Source: Mycobacteriales bacterium
Lineage (GTDB): Bacteria; Actinomycetota; Actinomycetes; Mycobacteriales; CADCTP01
Assembly (NCBI GenBank): GCA_035995165.1
Contig: DASYKU010000077.1
Span: forward strand, 1-60,356
Length of the DNA stretch: 60,356 nt
Direction of reading: 5' to 3'
In this document: positions 24,251-38,712 of the stretch, in pieces
How positions within the stretch are numbered: position 1 is the first letter of the stretch
How the letters are laid out: each line of letters opens with the position of its first letter
Position numbers and translations under genes: made by a program
Notes under the pieces: model-generated
Told to the model about the DNA's origin: nothing
The model's database searches: none
Seen by the model: only the letters and a program-made list of their open reading frames with translations

Positions 24251-26863
24251 TCAGAGCAGCTCGAGCTCCCGGGCGCGGAACACCGCATCGCGGCGCCGGC
24301 CCACCGACAGCTTGCGGTAGATGGCCGAGAGGTGGGTCTTCACGGTGTTCACCGAGAGGCAGAGCTCGTCGGCGATCTCCATGGTCGCCATGCTGGTCGC
24401 CATCAGCCTCAGCACGGCCTGCTCGCGATGGGTGAGCGGCTCGGGGAGGCTTGCCGCCGGCGCCGCCGTGGCACCGGTCGGGGCGAGGCTCGACATCCCC
24501 GCCGGCCAGCGCGCGGCCAGCATGGGATGCCGGCTGAGCACCGGGCCGAGCGCCTCGGTGGCCTGGACGAAGGGCAGCACGATGTCCTCGCCGCCGATGT
24601 CCAGGGCCCGGTCCAGCAGCTCCAGCGCCCGGCCGTCCTCGCCGCGGTGGTGCGCGATGTCGGCCTCGCACAGCACGGCGTCGATGAGCAGTTGCCGGGT
24701 CACGTACGGGCTGGGGGTCGTGGTGACGCTGCGTACGAGGGCAGCGGCGGTGTCGAGGTCGCCCAGCGCGAGGTGGGCCCGCGCGGTGGCGACCGCGGTG
24801 ACGATGGCCAGCGGGGTGCCGCGGTGCGGCTCCAGCCCCTGGAGCGCGGCTGTGGGGTGCCCCAGCGCGATCTCGATCGCGGCCAGCTCGCAGTCGCGGA
24901 GCGCGCCGTACAGGCCGGTCGCCGTGACCGCGAGCGCGGAGTTGTTCCGCAGCACGTCGCGGGCCCGGCGGAGTTCGCCGCAGGCAGCCAGGAAAGTCGC
25001 TTGCACGAAGGCGACCGTGGCCGCCTGCCCGGTGTCGGCGTAAACCGGACCGACCGCATGGACCCGCCGCATCGCCGCCGCCATGCCGGCCAGGTCGGCC
25101 TTGGCGTGCGCGCGGCGGGCGAGTGCGAGGTCGAGCACCACCGGCCGGGGAAGCTCGGGATGCCGGTCGAGCAGGGTGTCCGCGCGGTCGGCCGCGTCGT
25201 CGGCGCTGCGCGGCCGCCCGGCGGACACGCCGACGAAGACGAGCATGGACAGGACGTCGAGCTCCACCGCCGGCATCCCAAGCTCCACCACGTCCAGCGC
25301 ACGCTGGAGCAGCGGCTCCACGTCCTGCGGCCGGCCGGCGCTGAACCGGGCCCGGGCCTGCATCAGCAGGACGCTGGCCCGCAAGCCCGGCACGCCGTCC
25401 ACTGCGGCCCGCAGATCCTCGTCGGACAGCAGTCGCTCGGCCGCGGCGTCGACGACGGCGAAGGCCCCGGCCTTGCGGCCCAGCATCACTTCGACGAGGC
25501 AGTCGGTGACCCTGAGATCGGGATCGGTGTCGTTCAGGTCCGGCCGGTCGGCCTGGAGCTGGGCCAGCTCGACCGCCGCCGTCCCCGGATCCGCGGAGAT
25601 GGCGATGATCGCCCGGTCGGCCCCGTCGTACCCGAGCAGCTCGGCCGGCGTGGCGCCCGCCGGTGGTCGGCCGTTCGCCAGCTGCCGGAGACCGGCCTTG
25701 TCCATGTCCTGGTTGCTGACGAAGGCCTCGGCCAGGCCGCCGTGGACGAGCAGCGACCGGGTCGCCGACGCGTCCCCGGCTTGTACGGTCCACCGCAGCG
25801 CACCGGCCATGTCCCCGTGCCGGCGGTACCAGTCCGCGGCCTGCGCGTACTGCGCCCGCTCCTCGCCGGGAGGTTGCCGATGGGCGAGATGGCGCAGGAC
25901 CTCACGGAACAACTGGTGGTAGCGGAAGGTGGTCTGAGCCGGGTCGAGCGGGATCACGAAGGAGTTGGCCCGGGCCAGCGTGGCCAGCAGCGCGCCCGAA
26001 CCCTCGATACCGGTGACCGCTTCGGCCAGCGGCCCGGTGACGTCGTCGAGGAAGCTGGTCCGGATCAGCAGGCGCTGGACGCTCTCGGGCAGGAGGTTGA
26101 GCACCTCGGCGGTCAGGTACTCGCCGACGCTGCCCTGGTCCATGGCGAACACCGCGACGAACTCCGCCGGCCGCTCGATGTGCTCCATCCGCAGCGCCGC
26201 CAGCCGCATCCCGGCCGGCCAACCCTCCGTGCGCCGAGCCAGCAGCCCCAGATCCTCGTCCCCCAGCGAGACGCCGTGCTCACCGAGGAGCGCGCGCGCC
26301 TCCGGCTGCGTCATGGCCAACTCGGCCGCCCGTATCTCGTGCATCTGGCCGGCCAACCGGTATCGGTGCAGCGGTAGGAGGGGGTCGCTGCGGGCCGAGA
26401 TCAGCAGCCGCACCCGATGGGACCAGCGGTACACCACCCGGTCCAGCCCCTCCAGAATTTCCGGGTCGGTCAGCAGGTGCGCGTCGTCGAGCACCATCGT
26501 CAGCCGGTGGGCCGGTTCGGCGGCCCGGCCGAAGGCGAAGTCGAGCAGGTCGACGGTGCCGCCGCTGGTCCACGCGGTCGGCGGGAACTCCTGCCCGGCG
26601 GCCCGGCCCGCTTCCAGGAACTGACGCCAGAACCGGCGGGGATCGTCGTCGGCGGCCGTCAGCGCCAGCCAGGCCACCGGCCGCGTCTGGCGATGGGCCC
26701 ACTCGCTCAGCAGCACGGTCTTTCCGGTGCCGGCGCCGGCGGACAACACCGTCAGCGCGACCGGGCAGGCCTCGTCGAGGCGGTCGAGCAACCGAGTCCG
26801 CGAGAGGTGTCGGGGAGGCACGAACGGAGCCACGAACCGTTGATCGGACACCATCGCCGTCAT
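24251..26863 (-). CDS. LAL/MalT-type LuxR transcriptional regulator
   Basis: The 870-residue protein resembles MalT: an N-terminal NTPase with Walker A SAGAGTGKT near residues 40-48 and LTMVLDDAHLL as Walker B, a winged-helix and superhelical TPR region, and a C-terminal LuxR helix-turn-helix (LTHREQAVLRLMATSMATME, LSVNTVKTHLSAIYRKLSVG). Length is normal for the class. The ATG at 26863 is about 120 bases downstream of a consensus-like promoter and an intervening palindrome. The small B and A proteins follow, which suggests that it controls or works with them. Inducer unknown. Neighbouring HtrA and DUF1269 genes hint at envelope stress, but that is only inference. Confidence 0.9.
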   Translation of the reverse strand: MTAMVSDQRFVAPFVPPRHLSRTRLLDRLDEACPVALTVLSAGAGTGKTVLLSEWAHRQTRPVAWLALTAADDDPRRFWRQFLEAGRAAGQEFPPTAWTSGGTVDLLDFAFGRAAEPAHRLTMVLDDAHLLTDPEILEGLDRVVYRWSHRVRLLISARSDPLLPLHRYRLAGQMHEIRAAELAMTQPEARALLGEHGVSLGDEDLGLLARRTEGWPAGMRLAALRMEHIERPAEFVAVFAMDQGSVGEYLTAEVLNLLPESVQRLLIRTSFLDDVTGPLAEAVTGIEGSGALLATLARANSFVIPLDPAQTTFRYHQLFREVLRHLAHRQPPGEERAQYAQAADWYRRHGDMAGALRWTVQAGDASATRSLLVHGGLAEAFVSNQDMDKAGLRQLANGRPPAGATPAELLGYDGADRAIIAISADPGTAAVELAQLQADRPDLNDTDPDLRVTDCLVEVMLGRKAGAFAVVDAAAERLLSDEDLRAAVDGVPGLRASVLLMQARARFSAGRPQDVEPLLQRALDVVELGMPAVELDVLSMLVFVGVSAGRPRSADDAADRADTLLDRHPELPRPVVLDLALARRAHAKADLAGMAAAMRRVHAVGPVYADTGQAATVAFVQATFLAACGELRRARDVLRNNSALAVTATGLYGALRDCELAAIEIALGHPTAALQGLEPHRGTPLAIVTAVATARAHLALGDLDTAAALVRSVTTTPSPYVTRQLLIDAVLCEADIAHHRGEDGRALELLDRALDIGGEDIVLPFVQATEALGPVLSRHPMLAARWPAGMSSLAPTGATAAPAASLPEPLTHREQAVLRLMATSMATMEIADELCLSVNTVKTHLSAIYRKLSVGRRRDAVFRARELELL

Positions 26864-26944
26864 GCCCGCCTCCGCCCGGCTGACCGTGTTGTCTCACGGT
26901 CCCCGGACGCCGGATCGTCTGGATGAAGACCATCCCTCACTGAC

Positions 26945-26958
26945 GAACATGCATGTTC
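26945..26958. promoter_or_regulatory. 14-base perfect palindrome before LAL gene
   Basis: GAACATGCATGTTC is a perfect 14-base palindrome located between the predicted promoter at 26991-27018 and the LAL start at 26863, in the transcribed leader. It is a good candidate operator; its regulator is unknown. Confidence 0.55.
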
Positions 26959-26990
26959 CAAGACTGACCGGGGTATCAATCCGTGTTCGC

Positions 26991-27018
26991 CTCCTAGCAT
27001 TCTGTACCCGCCTGTCAA
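26991..27018 (-). promoter_or_regulatory. Sigma-70-like promoter for the LAL gene
   Basis: On the minus strand TTGACA (27018-27013) is followed after 16 bases by TAGGAG (26996-26991), close to the actinobacterial -35/-10 pattern. The local sequence is lower in GC than its surroundings. Transcription would start near 26984. Confidence 0.5.
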
Positions 27019-27621
27019 CCATGCGATCAACAACAGCCGCTCTCCAACGGGACGAGGGCGGCGTAGCGGGTCTCGACCGTCGGCACCGACGCGACCCTGA
27101 TCGGAATCGAGACCCATCTGGGGCTGACTCTTCGGGACCCCGCGGCGGCCCGGCGGCGGGAACGCGATCGTGGCCGAGTTCGACACGGCGAGAGCGCCAC
27201 CTGCGCGGTTCCTGACCGGCTCACCCCGCGCGAATGAGGCCGGGCGAGGTCGGCGCCCGTAGCGTCCCGACGGACGGGCCCTGCCGGGTTCGTCCGACAG
27301 GACAAGGGATCCGTCGGTCGGTCGGCCCGCCCGGCCGGGTGGGAGCAACGCCGTGCAGCGGACGGGAGACGGACCATGCCCCCGATCGGCGCAGTCTTCG
27401 ACGTCGCCCTGTCGACGCGAGTGCCGGTGACGACGTCGGCGGCCGACCTCGCACCGTCCTCTGTGGACCGGTCGCCGTCCCGGGTGACGGCGGGCTGCGG
27501 CACCGCCTGCTCGTGGACCTCGCGCTGCGCTTCGCCGCTCCGGAGCCGAAGGCCGGGGCACCGGCATGACGCCGCCGGGCCCTGGACGCCTACCGCCCCA
27601 CCTCCCATCGAAAGGACGGCC
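27019..27621. other. Gap without a supported gene
   Basis: About 600 bases lie between the LAL promoter and the HdeD-like gene. Open frames here are Arg/Pro-rich shadows. The only ordinary-looking stretch is a plus-strand frame ending at 27569 (VLCGPVAVPGDGGLRHRLLV and a further 18 residues), which could be a gene tail. I cannot assign it. Confidence 0.4.
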
Positions 27622-28281
27622 ATGTCCGGCACCGACCCGGTCGTTCCGCCCCCGCCGACGTTCGCGCCCGGCGCCTCCGCGGCCCAACCGGCCGGCCCCG
27701 ACGGCGGCGGCCCGGCGCCCGTCTCCCACCGGCCGACTCCCCTTCCGGCGACGCGTACGGGGTGGGACGTCGCCCTCGGGCTCGTGCTGATCGTCACCGG
27801 GGTGGTGGTCCTCGGTGACGTCGTCGTCGCCAGTGTCGTCTCGGTCCTCTTCATCGGCTGGACCCTGCTGATCGGCGGCGCCGTCGGCATCATCGTGGCG
27901 CTGTCCCGGATCGGCCGGGGCGGGTTCTGGATCGGGATGCTCGGCGGCGCGCTGGCGCTGATCGCCGGACTGATCTTCGTCACCAACACCGAGGTGGCCC
28001 TGCTCGCCCTCTCCCTCGCGATCGGCGCCAGCATGGTCACCAGCGGGGTCGTGCGGCTGGTCGCCGCCGTCCAGCATCCGGAGGCGCGCTCGGCCCTGGT
28101 CGTCTCGGGCGGACTGAGCCTCGTGCTCGGGCTGCTGATCCTCAACCAGTGGCCGAAATCCGCACTGTGGCTGCTGGGCACGCTGCTCGGCGTCCAGCTC
28201 GTCGTGGACGGGCTGACCCTGGTGCTGGCCGGCCGGCCCCGGCTCAGGGCCCCGGCCTCGACCGCCACGGCCGTACCGTGA
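27622..28281 (+). CDS. HdeD family (DUF308) membrane protein
   Basis: The 219-residue protein has a proline-rich cytoplasmic N-terminus of about 50 residues, then the RTGWDV motif, then six hydrophobic segments in three pairs. VALGLVLIVTGVVVLGDVVV and LFIGWTLLIGGAVGIIVAL start the repeat, and LWLLGTLLGVQLVVDGLTLV ends it. This is the HdeD/DUF308 layout; HdeD is an acid-resistance membrane protein in enterics, but the role in actinobacteria is unknown. ATG at 27622 has AAAGGA upstream and is preferred to 27376. Its stop overlaps the next gene (GTGA). A paralog lacking the middle helices lies at 38359-38712. Confidence 0.88.
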   Translation: MSGTDPVVPPPPTFAPGASAAQPAGPDGGGPAPVSHRPTPLPATRTGWDVALGLVLIVTGVVVLGDVVVASVVSVLFIGWTLLIGGAVGIIVALSRIGRGGFWIGMLGGALALIAGLIFVTNTEVALLALSLAIGASMVTSGVVRLVAAVQHPEARSALVVSGGLSLVLGLLILNQWPKSALWLLGTLLGVQLVVDGLTLVLAGRPRLRAPASTATAVP

Positions 28282-28487
28282 CGTCCAGGACCGAGCAGCT
28301 CGTGGGGGCCGTGATCGCTCTGGCCGGCGTGGCCGTACTCGGGGCCGCTCCTGCTCTGACCGACGGGACCCTGACGTGGCTGCTCGCGAGCAGCGCCGTC
28401 GTGCTCGTCCTGTGCGGCGCAGGTCTGGTATTGGACGCCCGGGCGCGGGCCGGCCGGGCCGGCCCCACCCCGCACCAGGATCGTTGA
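28278..28487 (+). CDS. Small two-helix membrane protein
   Basis: The 69-residue protein is mainly two hydrophobic segments (LVGAVIALAGVAVLGAAPAL and LTWLLASSAVVLVLCGAGLV) with a basic C-terminal tail. GTG at 28278 overlaps the stop of the HdeD-like gene in a GTGA junction, which indicates translational coupling. No family is recognised. It probably works with the HdeD-like protein in the membrane. Confidence 0.75.
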   Translation: MTSRTEQLVGAVIALAGVAVLGAAPALTDGTLTWLLASSAVVLVLCGAGLVLDARARAGRAGPTPHQDR

Positions 28488-28525
28488 CCAGTCGCACCGA
28501 CCGCAGATCCCAGGAGGACATCGCC

Positions 28526-28582
28526 ATGGTGGACGTCGCGGTCGTTCCGGCCGAGAACAAAGGCACTGTGCACGATGGCTGA
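28526..28582 (+). CDS. 18-residue leader ORF before lapA-like gene
   Basis: The reading frame MVDVAVVPAENKGTVHDG has an AGGAGG ribosome site 8 bases before its ATG. Its stop codon overlaps the start region of the next gene: the next ATG is at 28575 and the leader stop ends at 28582. The next gene has only a weak ribosome site of its own. This arrangement suggests translational coupling through a leader peptide. It may have no function as a peptide. Confidence 0.6.
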   Translation: MVDVAVVPAENKGTVHDG

Positions 28583-28823
28583 CGACGTCGCGGCAACACC
28601 GAAGCCGAACCCGATCGCGGGCTTCCTGCGCAGCCGTTGGATACCGATCGTGCTGGCGGTCGTCGCCGCCGTCTTCATCGGACAGAACCGCAACCGGGTC
28701 TCGATCGACCTGTTGTGGCTGCAGCTCTCCGCGCCGTTGTGGCTGATCCTGCTCGTCGCCGTCCTCGTCGGGATCATCATCGCGGCGTCGGGCTCGCGGC
28801 GGCGACGGCGGCAGTCGAGGTGA
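28575..28823 (+). CDS. LapA domain small membrane protein
   Basis: The 82-residue protein has two helices (WIPIVLAVVAAVFIGQNRN, LWLILLVAVLVGIIIAASG) separated by NRVSIDLLWLQLSAPLW. That linker is the signature of the LapA (lipopolysaccharide assembly protein A, DUF1049) family. A basic tail ends the protein. In actinobacteria the role is unknown. It starts inside the leader ORF and its stop overlaps the M20 peptidase start (GTGA). Confidence 0.85.
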   Translation: MADDVAATPKPNPIAGFLRSRWIPIVLAVVAAVFIGQNRNRVSIDLLWLQLSAPLWLILLVAVLVGIIIAASGSRRRRRQSR

Positions 28824-30085
28824 CCACGGCCGTCGCCGGCACCGGCGCGTCGACCTGGTCCGATCTCGCGGAGCTCTATCGCGACCTGCATCGCCACCCG
28901 GAGCTGTCCTTCGCCGAAACCCGCACAGCGCGGATCGTCGCGGACCGGTTGCGCGGCATGGGCTTCCGGACGACGGAGAACGTGGGGCGCACCGGGGTCG
29001 TCGGCGTCCTGCGCAACGGTGCTGGCCCGACCGCACTGCTGCGCGCGGACATGGATGCGTTGCCACTCCTGGAACGCACCGGCCTTCCGTACGCCAGCAC
29101 CGCCCATGGCCTCGACCGCGAGGGCCAGGACGTGCCGGTCATGCACGCGTGCGGCCACGACATGCACGTCGCCTGCCTGCTGGGAGCCGCGCACCTCCTC
29201 GCCGAGGAGCTGTCTTCCTGGCGGGGCACGGTGCTGGCGGTGTTCCAGCCGGCGGAGGAGGCCGGGCAGGGTGCCGCGACGATGGTGGCCGACGGGCTGT
29301 ACGAACGGTTCGGCCGGCCCGACGTGGTACTCGGCCAGCATGTGGCGCCGCTGCCGGCCGGAGCCCTGGCCGTCCGGGCCGGCACCGCGTTCGCCGCCGC
29401 CGATGCTCTGCGCGTCGTGATGTTCGGCCGTGGCGGCCACGGGTCGCGGCCGGAGACGACGGTCGATCCGGTGGTCATGGCCGCCGCCACCGTCATGCGG
29501 CTGCAGACGATCGTCTCTCGTGAGATCGCGGGGACCCAGACCGCGATCGTCACGGTGGGCGCGTTGCGAGCCGGCTCGAAGGAGAACATCATTCCCGATC
29601 GGGCGGAGCTCCTCATCAGCGTACGGAGCTTCGACGACACCGTCCGTCGCCGGACGCTCGACGCCATCGACCGCATGGTCCGAGCGGAGGCCGTCGCCTC
29701 GGGCGCGGACCGCGATCCGGAGATCACGGTTCTCGACGGCTTCCCGGCGGTGGTCAACGACGAGGCGGCCGTGGCCCGGACCGTTCCCGCGTTCGAAGCA
29801 CTCGTGGGCGCCGGTCGCGTGTTCGACCCCGGATTGGTCACCGGCAGCGAGGATGTGGGACTGCTGGCCTCGTCGGCCTCAGCACCCTGCGTGTACTGGA
29901 TCCTCGGCGGCGCGGACCCGGCCGAGTTCGCGGACGCGAACAATGCCGCGGACATCGTCGCCCGGGTGGCGGAGCTGCCGTCCAATCATTCGCCGCTGTA
30001 CGCACCGGTCGTCGAACCGACCCTCGTCACCGGGGCCCGGGCGCTGGCAACCGCGGCGCGCGTGTGGCTTCCGGCCACTCGGTGA
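28820..30085 (+). CDS. M20 family metallopeptidase / amidohydrolase
   Basis: The 421-residue enzyme has the M20 fold. Metal-site motifs are LLRADMDALPL (HxD-type region, with RADMDALP typical of the amidohydrolase branch), MHACGHDMHVACLLG (Cys-Gly-His-Asp) and FQPAEEAGQGA (two Glu). A dimerisation domain starts near VVMFGRGGHGSRPETTVDP. The branch includes N-acyl-amino-acid amidohydrolases and the AbgA/AbgB p-aminobenzoyl-glutamate hydrolases. GTG at 28820 overlaps the LapA stop. An AbgT transporter, an aminopeptidase and a glutaminase lie in the next 11 kb, so a role in acyl-glutamate or peptide salvage is plausible but not shown. Confidence 0.92.
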   Translation: MTTAVAGTGASTWSDLAELYRDLHRHPELSFAETRTARIVADRLRGMGFRTTENVGRTGVVGVLRNGAGPTALLRADMDALPLLERTGLPYASTAHGLDREGQDVPVMHACGHDMHVACLLGAAHLLAEELSSWRGTVLAVFQPAEEAGQGAATMVADGLYERFGRPDVVLGQHVAPLPAGALAVRAGTAFAAADALRVVMFGRGGHGSRPETTVDPVVMAAATVMRLQTIVSREIAGTQTAIVTVGALRAGSKENIIPDRAELLISVRSFDDTVRRRTLDAIDRMVRAEAVASGADRDPEITVLDGFPAVVNDEAAVARTVPAFEALVGAGRVFDPGLVTGSEDVGLLASSASAPCVYWILGGADPAEFADANNAADIVARVAELPSNHSPLYAPVVEPTLVTGARALATAARVWLPATR

Positions 30086-30191
30086 CCAAGCATGGCCGCA
30101 ACGACCTGCCGGCGAGCCGGGCGCGGGGCGACGGCGCGGTGCCATGCTGTTCGGCACCGGCGTTCGTCACGGGGAAGGGAGTGGCCCGATC

Positions 30192-32225
30192 GTGGCCGTC
30201 CACACTGCAGTGCTCCCCCCATCCGGGGAGCTGAGCCGCCGGCAGATGAATCTGGTCTTCGGCACGGTGCTGCTGGGGATCCTGCTGTCGGCGCTGGACC
30301 AGACGATCGTCTCGACCGCGCTGCCGACGATCGTCGGTGATCTCGGCGGCGGCGCGCACCTGTCCTGGGTGGTGTCCGCCTACCTCCTGACGGACACGAT
30401 CGCGACGGTGCTCGCGGGGAAGTTCGGCGACCTGTTCGGTCGCAAGCTGATGCTGCAGGTGTCGGCCGGGGTGTTCGTGATCGCCTCGGCCGCGTGCGGG
30501 TTCGCCGGCGGCATGACCTGGCTGATCGGCTGGCGCGCGGTGCAGGGGCTGGGTGCCGGCGGCTTGGCCGTGACCGCGACCGCGCTGATCGCCGACGTGA
30601 TCCCGCTGCGCGAGCGGGGCAAGTACCAGGGCGCGCTCGGTGCGGTGTTCGGGGTGACGACGGTGCTCGGGCCGCTGCTCGGCGGGCTGTTCACCGACCA
30701 CCTGTCCTGGCGCTGGGCGTTCTACGTGAACCTGCCGCTCGGCGTGGTGGTGGTGATCCTGGCCTCCTTCACCATCCCGCGGGCCAAGACGGTCTCACGA
30801 CCGATCATCGACTACCTGGGTATCGGGTTCGTGTCCGTGGGCGCCGCCGGTCTGGTGCTGGCGCTGAGCTGGGGTGGCACCGAGTACGCCTGGGGCTCGG
30901 CGACGATCCTCGGGCTGTTCGCGGCCTCGGTGGTCGCGGTCGGGCTGTTCGTGTACTCCGAGTCGAGGGCGGTCGACCCGATCCTGCCGCTGCGGCTGTT
31001 CCGCCGTCAGGTGTTCAGTCTCAGCGTCGTGCTCGCGTTCATCGTCGGTTTCGCGATGCTCGGCGCGATCACGTTCCTGCCGACGTACTTCCAGTACGTC
31101 CGGGGCGTCTCGGCGACCGCCTCGGGCGTGCAGACGCTGCCGCTGGTCGTCGGGCTGCTCGTCACGTCCATTCTGTCCGGCACGATCATCGGGCGTACCG
31201 GCCGGTACAAGGTCTTCCCGGTCGCCGGGTCGCTGCTGATGGGCCTGGGGCTGTGGCTGCTGTCGCTGATGGACGCGCGGACCAGCTTCTGGCTGATGGC
31301 GACGTACATGCTGGTGCTCGGCGCCGGCATCGGGTTGATCATGCAGGTGCTGACGATCATCGTGCAGAACACCGTCGACTACCGCGACCTGGGCGTGGCG
31401 ACCTCGGGGGTGACCTTCTTCCGGACCCTGGGCAGCGCCTTCGGGGCAGCGATCTTCGGCGCGATCTACTCCAACGTGCTGCGCTCCGTGCTGCCCGGCG
31501 CGGTGGCCCGTGCGCCCGGGGTGAACCCGGCCGCGATCGGCACCCCCAAGGCGCTGCACGCCTACCCGAAGAACCAGATCGCGCCGATCGTCGACGCGTA
31601 CGCCCACTCGCTGCACGTGGTGTTCCTGTTCGCGGTTCCGGTCGCCGGGCTGTCCTTCGTGCTCTCGCTGTTCCTGAAGGAGGTCCCGCTGCGGGACACC
31701 GCCAAGGCCGGAGCGGGCGACGTCGGTGGCGGGTTCGGCCTGCCGGAACGGGCCGAGAGCCTGCAGCAGCTGCAGACCGCCATCGCCCGGGTGATGGGCA
31801 GCCGCGGACGGGCGGCGCTGGCCGAGATCCGCGACGCGTCCGGCACCGAACTGGACGTCGCGAACGGCTGGTGCGTGGGCGCGGTGTACCTGCGCGCCCG
31901 GCTGGACCGCGACACCAGCGTGGCCGCGATCGCGCACAACCACCGGCTGCCGGCCCCGGTCCTGCAGCCGGCTTTCCAGCAGGCCCGCGCCGCCGGCTAC
32001 CTGACCGGCGACGACGACCACCTGCGACTCACCGAGGCCGGCCAGCACGAGATCGACGACCTGGTCGCCGCCATCCACGCGTGGCTGCGCACCGAGTTGC
32101 GCGACTGGGGCTCCGACGACGACCAGCTACTCCGCCAGGCGATGGCCGGCATCGCCCGCCAGATCGTCGACCAGGAGCCGCAGCCGGCGCCGGTGCCGCA
32201 GCTGGCCGCGTCAACCCGAGACTGA
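30192..32225 (+). CDS. DHA2 MFS multidrug exporter with C-terminal soluble domain
   Basis: The 677-residue protein has 14 helices of the EmrB/QacA type. Markers are LSALDQTIVSTALPTIVGDL near residue 35, motif A GKFGDLFGRKLMLQ and motif C GVTTVLGPLLGGLFTDHLSW. Beyond helix 14 an extra soluble part of about 170 residues starts at residue 505. It contains a winged-helix-like stretch (LPAPVLQPAFQQARAAGYLT, LRLTEAGQHEIDDLVAAI), as seen in MarR-type folds. GTG at 30192 has an AAGGGAG site upstream; ATG at 30144 is possible. Substrate unknown. It converges on the SLC13 gene. Confidence 0.9.
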   Translation: MAVHTAVLPPSGELSRRQMNLVFGTVLLGILLSALDQTIVSTALPTIVGDLGGGAHLSWVVSAYLLTDTIATVLAGKFGDLFGRKLMLQVSAGVFVIASAACGFAGGMTWLIGWRAVQGLGAGGLAVTATALIADVIPLRERGKYQGALGAVFGVTTVLGPLLGGLFTDHLSWRWAFYVNLPLGVVVVILASFTIPRAKTVSRPIIDYLGIGFVSVGAAGLVLALSWGGTEYAWGSATILGLFAASVVAVGLFVYSESRAVDPILPLRLFRRQVFSLSVVLAFIVGFAMLGAITFLPTYFQYVRGVSATASGVQTLPLVVGLLVTSILSGTIIGRTGRYKVFPVAGSLLMGLGLWLLSLMDARTSFWLMATYMLVLGAGIGLIMQVLTIIVQNTVDYRDLGVATSGVTFFRTLGSAFGAAIFGAIYSNVLRSVLPGAVARAPGVNPAAIGTPKALHAYPKNQIAPIVDAYAHSLHVVFLFAVPVAGLSFVLSLFLKEVPLRDTAKAGAGDVGGGFGLPERAESLQQLQTAIARVMGSRGRAALAEIRDASGTELDVANGWCVGAVYLRARLDRDTSVAAIAHNHRLPAPVLQPAFQQARAAGYLTGDDDHLRLTEAGQHEIDDLVAAIHAWLRTELRDWGSDDDQLLRQAMAGIARQIVDQEPQPAPVPQLAASTRD

Positions 32226-38358: not shown

Positions 38359-38712
38359 ATGTCCACCGCCCCCACCGCCCCGCCCGCTCCCGGGCGCGGC
38401 TCCGGCCCGGCCAGTGCCTCGGGCGCCCACCGCGACCCCGACGGCGTCGGCCGGCCAGCCGGTCAGGCGGACCCACCGGTGGTGGCGATGAGGCGCACCG
38501 GGTGGGATGTCCGGATGGCGCAGGCGGTCCAGGAGCGGGACCAGCGCTTCGTGCTGCTCTTCTCCGGCGTTGTGACCCTGGTGCTCGGGGTGATGATCCT
38601 TGACCGGTGGCCGGAGTCCGCGCTCCGGCTCCTGGGCACTCTGCTCGGCGTGCAGATCGTGGTCGACGGGCTCTTGCTCATGGTCTTCGGCCGGCCCCGG
38701 CTGACGACCTGA
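38359..38712 (+). CDS. Shortened HdeD-like membrane protein
   Basis: The 117-residue protein keeps both ends of the HdeD-like protein at 27622-28281 but not its middle. After a proline-rich leader it has RRTGWDV, then only one helix pair (FVLLFSGVVTLVLGVMILDR, LLGTLLGVQIVVDGLLLMVF). The C-terminal pair is strongly similar to the paralog (RWPESALRLLGTLLGVQ). About 110 residues that carry four helices are absent. ATG at 38359 has an AAAGG site 12 bases before it. It sits between the AbgT gene and the glutaminase gene on the same strand. Confidence 0.8.
   Translation: MSTAPTAPPAPGRGSGPASASGAHRDPDGVGRPAGQADPPVVAMRRTGWDVRMAQAVQERDQRFVLLFSGVVTLVLGVMILDRWPESALRLLGTLLGVQIVVDGLLLMVFGRPRLTT

Follow-up and report, generated by a model that had tools for sequence, protein, structure and literature searches.

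In mycobacteria, hundreds of unannotated proteins of 5–50 aa have been suggested, many of them encoded directly ahead of annotated genes (PMC4633059). Small open reading frames (ORFs) coupled to the next gene through an RTGA sequence are described as over-represented in these bacteria, and the linkage is sometimes kept while the peptide diverges (PMC4633059). An example from Salmonella is mgtQ, an 8-aa intergenic ORF with an AGGAGG of its own, located between mgtC and mgtB and described as promoting the downstream gene (PMC8092293). In E. coli, coupling between neighbouring genes is reported to be most efficient at spacings of −4 to +3 nt, with efficiency falling as the overlap grows (PMC12548453). 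Of 63 literature matches that combined DUF1049/LapA with either small ORFs or coupling, the 10 listed contained nothing pertinent.

A short ORF in a row of overlapping genes

The locus compared here lies in a window of 60,356 nt, the whole stretch of DNA that was analysed, from a Mycobacteriales bacterium. On its plus strand, the gene for a DUF308/HdeD-like membrane protein of 219 aa (27622..28281; PF03729, E 2.4e-16; 40.9 bits with the NCBIfam HdeD model, under its cut-off of 189) is followed by a GTG-initiated hydrophobic ORF of 69 aa (28278..28487), which matched no Pfam family at its cut-off. Next come an 18-codon short ORF (28526..28582; MVDVAVVPAENKGTVHDG, 18 codons and TGA), a gene for an 82-aa LapA_dom protein (28575..28823; PF06305, E 4.3e-08, 33.4 bits against a gathering cut-off of 28, with profile positions 1–36 of 64 matched) and the GTG-initiated gene for an M20 family amidohydrolase of 421 aa (28820..30085; PF01546, E 2.7e-28; TIGR01891, 264 bits, over the cut-off of 153.75). 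These frames are probably co-transcribed as one operon. A scan of 26900–30300 returned no sigma-70-type promoter and a single terminator-like site on the minus strand, both scans being uninformative at 74% GC.

The junctions within this row agree with those described in the initial annotation. The HdeD stop overlaps the GTG of the 69-aa ORF at 28278 by 4 nt (GTGA), the LapA stop overlaps the M20 GTG at 28820 in the same manner (4 nt, GTGA), and the short ORF ends within the LapA-like gene through an 8-nt overlap, ATGGCTGA (28575–28582). The ribosome site that had been called ideal is an AGGAGG at 28512..28517, 8 nt before the ATG, with a predicted anti-Shine-Dalgarno duplex of −10.3 kcal/mol, and it is the sole consensus Shine-Dalgarno (SD) sequence in the row. 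Duplex energies at the remaining starts are −5.3 kcal/mol for HdeD, −5.0 for M20 (with no recognisable SD), −3.2 for LapA and −1.7 for the 69-aa ORF, which is likewise without an SD; LapA has a weak AAAGG about 10 nt from its start, in keeping with the earlier statement that it lacks a strong site of its own. Among the matches listed, the LapA frame contains no other ATG, GTG or TTG from its preceding stop at 28485 up to 28575. The short ORF had also been termed a leader. The ORF itself stands, but it begins 38 nt past the 69-aa ORF, in the sole gap of the putative operon, and is intercistronic, probably not the 5′ leader of a transcript.

This anatomy shares features with each of the described systems and differs from each. 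Like the mycobacterial small ORFs, the short ORF falls within 5–50 aa and ends just inside the start of the next gene, and some of those peptides are also unconserved (PMC4633059). The small ORFs described in that report are leaderless and lie at the transcript 5′ end, whereas the present one is SD-led and probably mid-operon, and its upstream AGGAGG speaks against membership in the leaderless class (PMC4633059). Its overlap with the next same-strand start makes it a candidate translationally coupled small ORF; the RTGA "coupled" class is defined by a 4-nt overlap, and with 8 nt the short ORF fits by position the "overlapping" class (PMC4633059). In common with mgtQ, it is an intergenic ORF with an AGGAGG ahead of a membrane-protein gene, mgtQ lying 51 nt after the upstream stop and the short ORF 38 nt. 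The presence of the 8-aa mgtQ is described as conserved in other bacteria, while no conservation was found for the 18-codon ORF (PMC8092293). Operon coupling through GTGA/ATGA overlaps, as reviewed for coupled genes, is matched by the HdeD/69-aa ORF and LapA/M20 junctions, but the partner upstream of LapA is only 18 codons long and overlaps it by 8 nt (PMC12548453).

Several other genes were noted in the window. A second, shortened DUF308/HdeD-like ORF of 117 aa (38359–38712; PF03729, 21.8 bits, below the cut-off of 25) is similar in its C-terminal part to residues 144–216 of the first copy (58% identity) and is possibly an internally deleted paralogue of it. A DHA2/EmrB-type MFS efflux transporter (30192–32225, start assigned by eye) scored 232.4 bits with TIGR00711, just over the cut-off of 230.2; its C-terminal extension of about 180 aa had no Pfam assignment and, by eye, could be a winged-helix domain. 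Upstream of the operon and on the opposite strand is an 870-aa MalT-like LuxR-type regulator (24251–26863, minus strand), with a GerE domain (2.1e-14) and a MalT TPR region below cut-off.

Proposed ribosome entry at LapA

We are somewhat inclined to regard the short ORF as an intercistronic ribosome-entry cistron that feeds LapA, and then M20, by translational coupling. Ribosomes would load at the AGGAGG, translate the short ORF, terminate at the TGA at 28580–28582, move 5 nt backward and reinitiate at the LapA ATG at 28575. Their passage would open any local pairing at the LapA start, and LapA would pass ribosomes on to M20 through the GTGA. The peptide itself is probably without function. 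Translation of the short ORF is suggested by its strong SD, and coupling to LapA would follow from the anatomy: the overlap geometry, the SD contrast, the accessible start of the short ORF, a LapA N-terminus of a length like that of its relatives and the published precedents argue for it. Against it are a codon score that is not distinctive, no unusual sequestration of the LapA start, an arrangement not kept in 46 relatives, and an overlap that is not of the best spacing; at 8 nt it exceeds the spacing of −4 to +3 nt described as most efficient in E. coli, and would be workable but not ideal (PMC12548453). The chain of coupled starts proposed in the initial annotation was upheld in part, in that the overlaps and the SD contrast fit such a chain, while the absence of the arrangement from relatives and the off-optimum overlap do not.

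Codons 2–18 of the short ORF score 0.215, a value that 20 of 66 SD-led gene starts do not exceed, and this score is reached by 147 of 590 chance ATG-opened ORFs of 12–30 codons (25%). For codons 2–16, the part outside LapA, the frame scores 0.322 against −0.364 and −1.552 for the other two frames. Such values are compatible with translation and give no evidence for a selected peptide.

It is also possible, on a more tentative footing, that LapA is initiated directly at 28575, through the weak AAAGG or independently of an SD, or else with ribosomes arriving from the 69-aa ORF, the short ORF being incidental or even competing. In favour are the AAAGG about 10 nt upstream and the low cost of opening the LapA start region (11.0 kcal/mol; at least as much is needed for 91 of the 104 SD-led genes and for 400 of the 420 RTG codons drawn at random). 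Moreover, 60 of 288 called genes have an SD weaker than −5 kcal/mol at their best start; only 5 of these 60 have a called gene ending no more than 30 nt before them, so a weak SD alone is no pointer to coupling. Feeding from the 69-aa ORF would have to span 87 nt, which is long for coupling; at spacings above 30 nt little coupling was seen in one study, with another observing it at larger distances, as cited in PMC12548453.

How often such an ORF arises by chance was gauged on 374,981 bases of the source genome (the window and 20 further stretches, both strands); the gene caller was crude (a GC-by-position filter with SD-chosen starts) and the counts are rough. Sixteen ATGs had an AGGAGG 5–9 nt upstream, opening ORFs of at least 80 codons in 12 cases, 40–79 codons in 1 and 10–39 codons in 3. 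With the AGGAGG displaced to 20–24 nt upstream, the corresponding numbers among 10 ATGs were 5, 2 and 3, and for the looser GGAGG/AGGAG, ORFs below 40 codons made up 12 of 74, against 11 of 55 when displaced. Short ORFs are thus no commoner behind a proper AGGAGG than behind a displaced one (3/16 vs 3/10), and short ORFs led by a strong site are not in themselves rare, which favours the incidental reading. The full arrangement, a short ORF with an SD of −9 kcal/mol or better that ends between −10 and +20 nt relative to a start, occurred at 19 of the 6019 RTG codons drawn at random (0.3%). For the one available LapA start it is roughly a 0.3% event, and it falls in the operon's only gap, both of which speak against an incidental origin. 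At least one candidate start carried the arrangement in 11 of the 288 crudely called genes, and together with a best start of −5.0 kcal/mol or weaker for the gene itself it was seen in 3 of the 288 (LapA of the window, −3.2; L083, −2.4; L079, −5.0); of these three, only the window's has an ATG. Across the thousands of starts in a genome, chance should yield several such arrangements. Unusual at any single start, it does not exceed chance over a whole genome.

Relatives of LapA and of the short ORF

At the thresholds used, 32 of the 397 genomes searched in the order had a LapA match, as did 15 of the 394 searched in the class, the source genome included in both, so that most searched genomes had none; no match was found in plasmids. 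The comparison set of 46 relatives comprised all listed LapA matches except the gene itself, the weak L002 and L003 of the same genome and L004 of G001; its members are at most 53% identical to the window LapA and not all independent, L005 and L006 yielding the same row and L007 and L008 being very alike. L002 (G000:C5:76265-76462) is a second, weakly LapA-like frame in the source genome (29% identity) near a response-regulator-like frame, and L004, a weak hit in G001 (35%, E 8.7e-4), is also near such a frame; because of this shared setting, the window LapA may be an extra copy.

In 34 of the 46 relatives the start with the best SD lies 29–39 codons before an anchor residue, and 28575 lies 36 codons before it, the commonest value in the first comparison of the relatives' starts. 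Since a fused start at 28526 would place about 52 codons before the anchor, 28575 is, judged by these relatives, the natural LapA start. An SD of their own of −8 kcal/mol or better is present in 29 of the 46, and 4 (L017, L021, L044 and L117) have one weaker than −5. L017 and L021, among the closest relatives (53% and 48%), have LapA 11 nt after a long open frame, a layout that would parallel ribosome entry from upstream for LapA. In L044, whose start is uncertain, LapA follows a long frame by 7 nt, and in L117 there is no upstream frame.

These starts bear on a further, improbable reading, in which LapA truly begins at 28526 and its frame has been broken by a one-base indel (an assembly error or a mutation), making the short ORF a LapA N-terminal extension. 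The two starts are indeed 49 nt apart and one base out of frame, the short ORF resembles a gene in its start and, for the part outside LapA, in its codon score, and a strong SD directly at the start is what 29 of 46 relatives possess. Only 4 of the 46, by their strongest SD, have at least 50 codons before the anchor, three of these have an alternative ATG at 37, and the window's value is already the commonest one. As most relatives start at the position corresponding to 28575, a start at 28526 in a broken frame is the less likely one.

Recurrence of the short ORF among relatives, a check put forward with the initial annotation, was not borne out. An ATG- or GTG-initiated short ORF with an SD of −9 kcal/mol or better that ends at a candidate LapA start was found in 1 of the 46 (L088), a doubtful case: it opens with GTG, has 23 codons and overlaps LapA by 4 nt, but its end coincides with that of a 132-codon open frame, and LapA there is itself led by an SD of −10.3. 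Weaker lookalikes occur in L031 (5 codons, −8.1) and L040 (TTG, 17 codons, −8.0). With a comparable ORF in only this one of 46 distant relatives, the short ORF does not group with conserved regulatory upstream ORFs (uORFs). The 18-residue peptide had no detectable relative. When 28450–28660 was searched as DNA against 249 genomes of the order, 98 of them matched, the source among them, and all matches but its own were short; the 18 places inspected shared no gene or gene start and were set aside as chance. Six of them were antisense to one conserved motif (DLDVHHGDG), others lay within frames labelled by eye as reductase-like or methyltransferase-like, L113 matched near the beginning of a frame, and L111 had no coding-like frame by the filter used.

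The neighbourhood as a whole was likewise not encountered in the places read. Six LapA neighbourhoods read by eye over about 1.5 kb on each side (L017–L021, the five best matches, and L036) showed no DUF308 or M20 gene. DUF308 matches occurred in 11 of 249 genomes, the source included, and LapA was not noticed in three of their neighbourhoods (L047, L049 and L050). The 69-aa ORF was sought in 2 genomes of the family; in one of these, G001, an M20 homologue (52%) is in a different setting. Because identity to the relatives does not exceed 53% and the six neighbourhoods read were non-syntenic, the conservation test is weak, and the missing conservation appears to decide neither for nor against coupling. 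In the one genome of the genus besides the source (L060, 1120–1335 and 2762–4195), the M20 homologue adjoins a Cys/Ser-rich precursor-like peptide (...SCSCSSCSTCSSCCSCTSCCA). A frame beside that homologue looks YcaO-like, and the set may be a thiopeptide/azole RiPP cluster.

RNA structure and the place of the short ORF

In the predicted centroid fold, 28532–28545 pairs with 28575–28581 and 28583–28589, a 14-pair stem (28532..28589; pair probability 0.51–0.59) that covers the LapA ATG. The unpaired probability of the LapA start codon is 0.13; the starts of 16 of the 104 SD-led genes, and 139 of the 420 random RTG codons, are at least as closed. Opening the LapA start region costs less than opening most gene starts, so sequestration of the LapA start is possible in this model but not supported as special. 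The start region of the short ORF would be opened at 9.3 kcal/mol, with the same or more needed in 101 of 104 SD-led genes. As for the fold as a whole, 188 of 200 shuffles folded at least as well (z +1.52), and for a shorter stretch 154 of 200 did (z +0.72). An attenuator or riboswitch was considered and rejected, with no Rfam match and with both folds weaker than those of most shuffles. mgtQ is described as freeing a ribosome-binding site held in a stem-loop, and no unusual stem was found at the short ORF and LapA (PMC8092293). For the short ORF a role as regulatory uORF, with stalling or abortion controlling LapA, is very improbable: the mgtQ study sets a precedent for intergenic short ORFs (PMC8092293) and the stem does cover the LapA start, but the 18-residue peptide has no run of one codon, and neither an Rfam match, an unusual fold nor conservation accompanies it.

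A stronger form of the ribosome-entry proposal holds that the short ORF is a dedicated SD-led loading ORF whose peptide has no role, a second entry for LapA and M20 that replaces the SD found at the start of most LapA relatives, with a lineage-specific stem tying the opening of the LapA start to its translation; this we consider doubtful. The anatomy is real, and ordinary coupling is plausible, with no sign of anything beyond a known kind. If translated, the short ORF would be an SD-led, mid-operon addition to the actinobacterial coupled small ORFs, of a size that annotation usually misses, and its effect would probably extend only to how strongly one small membrane protein and an M20 hydrolase are expressed.
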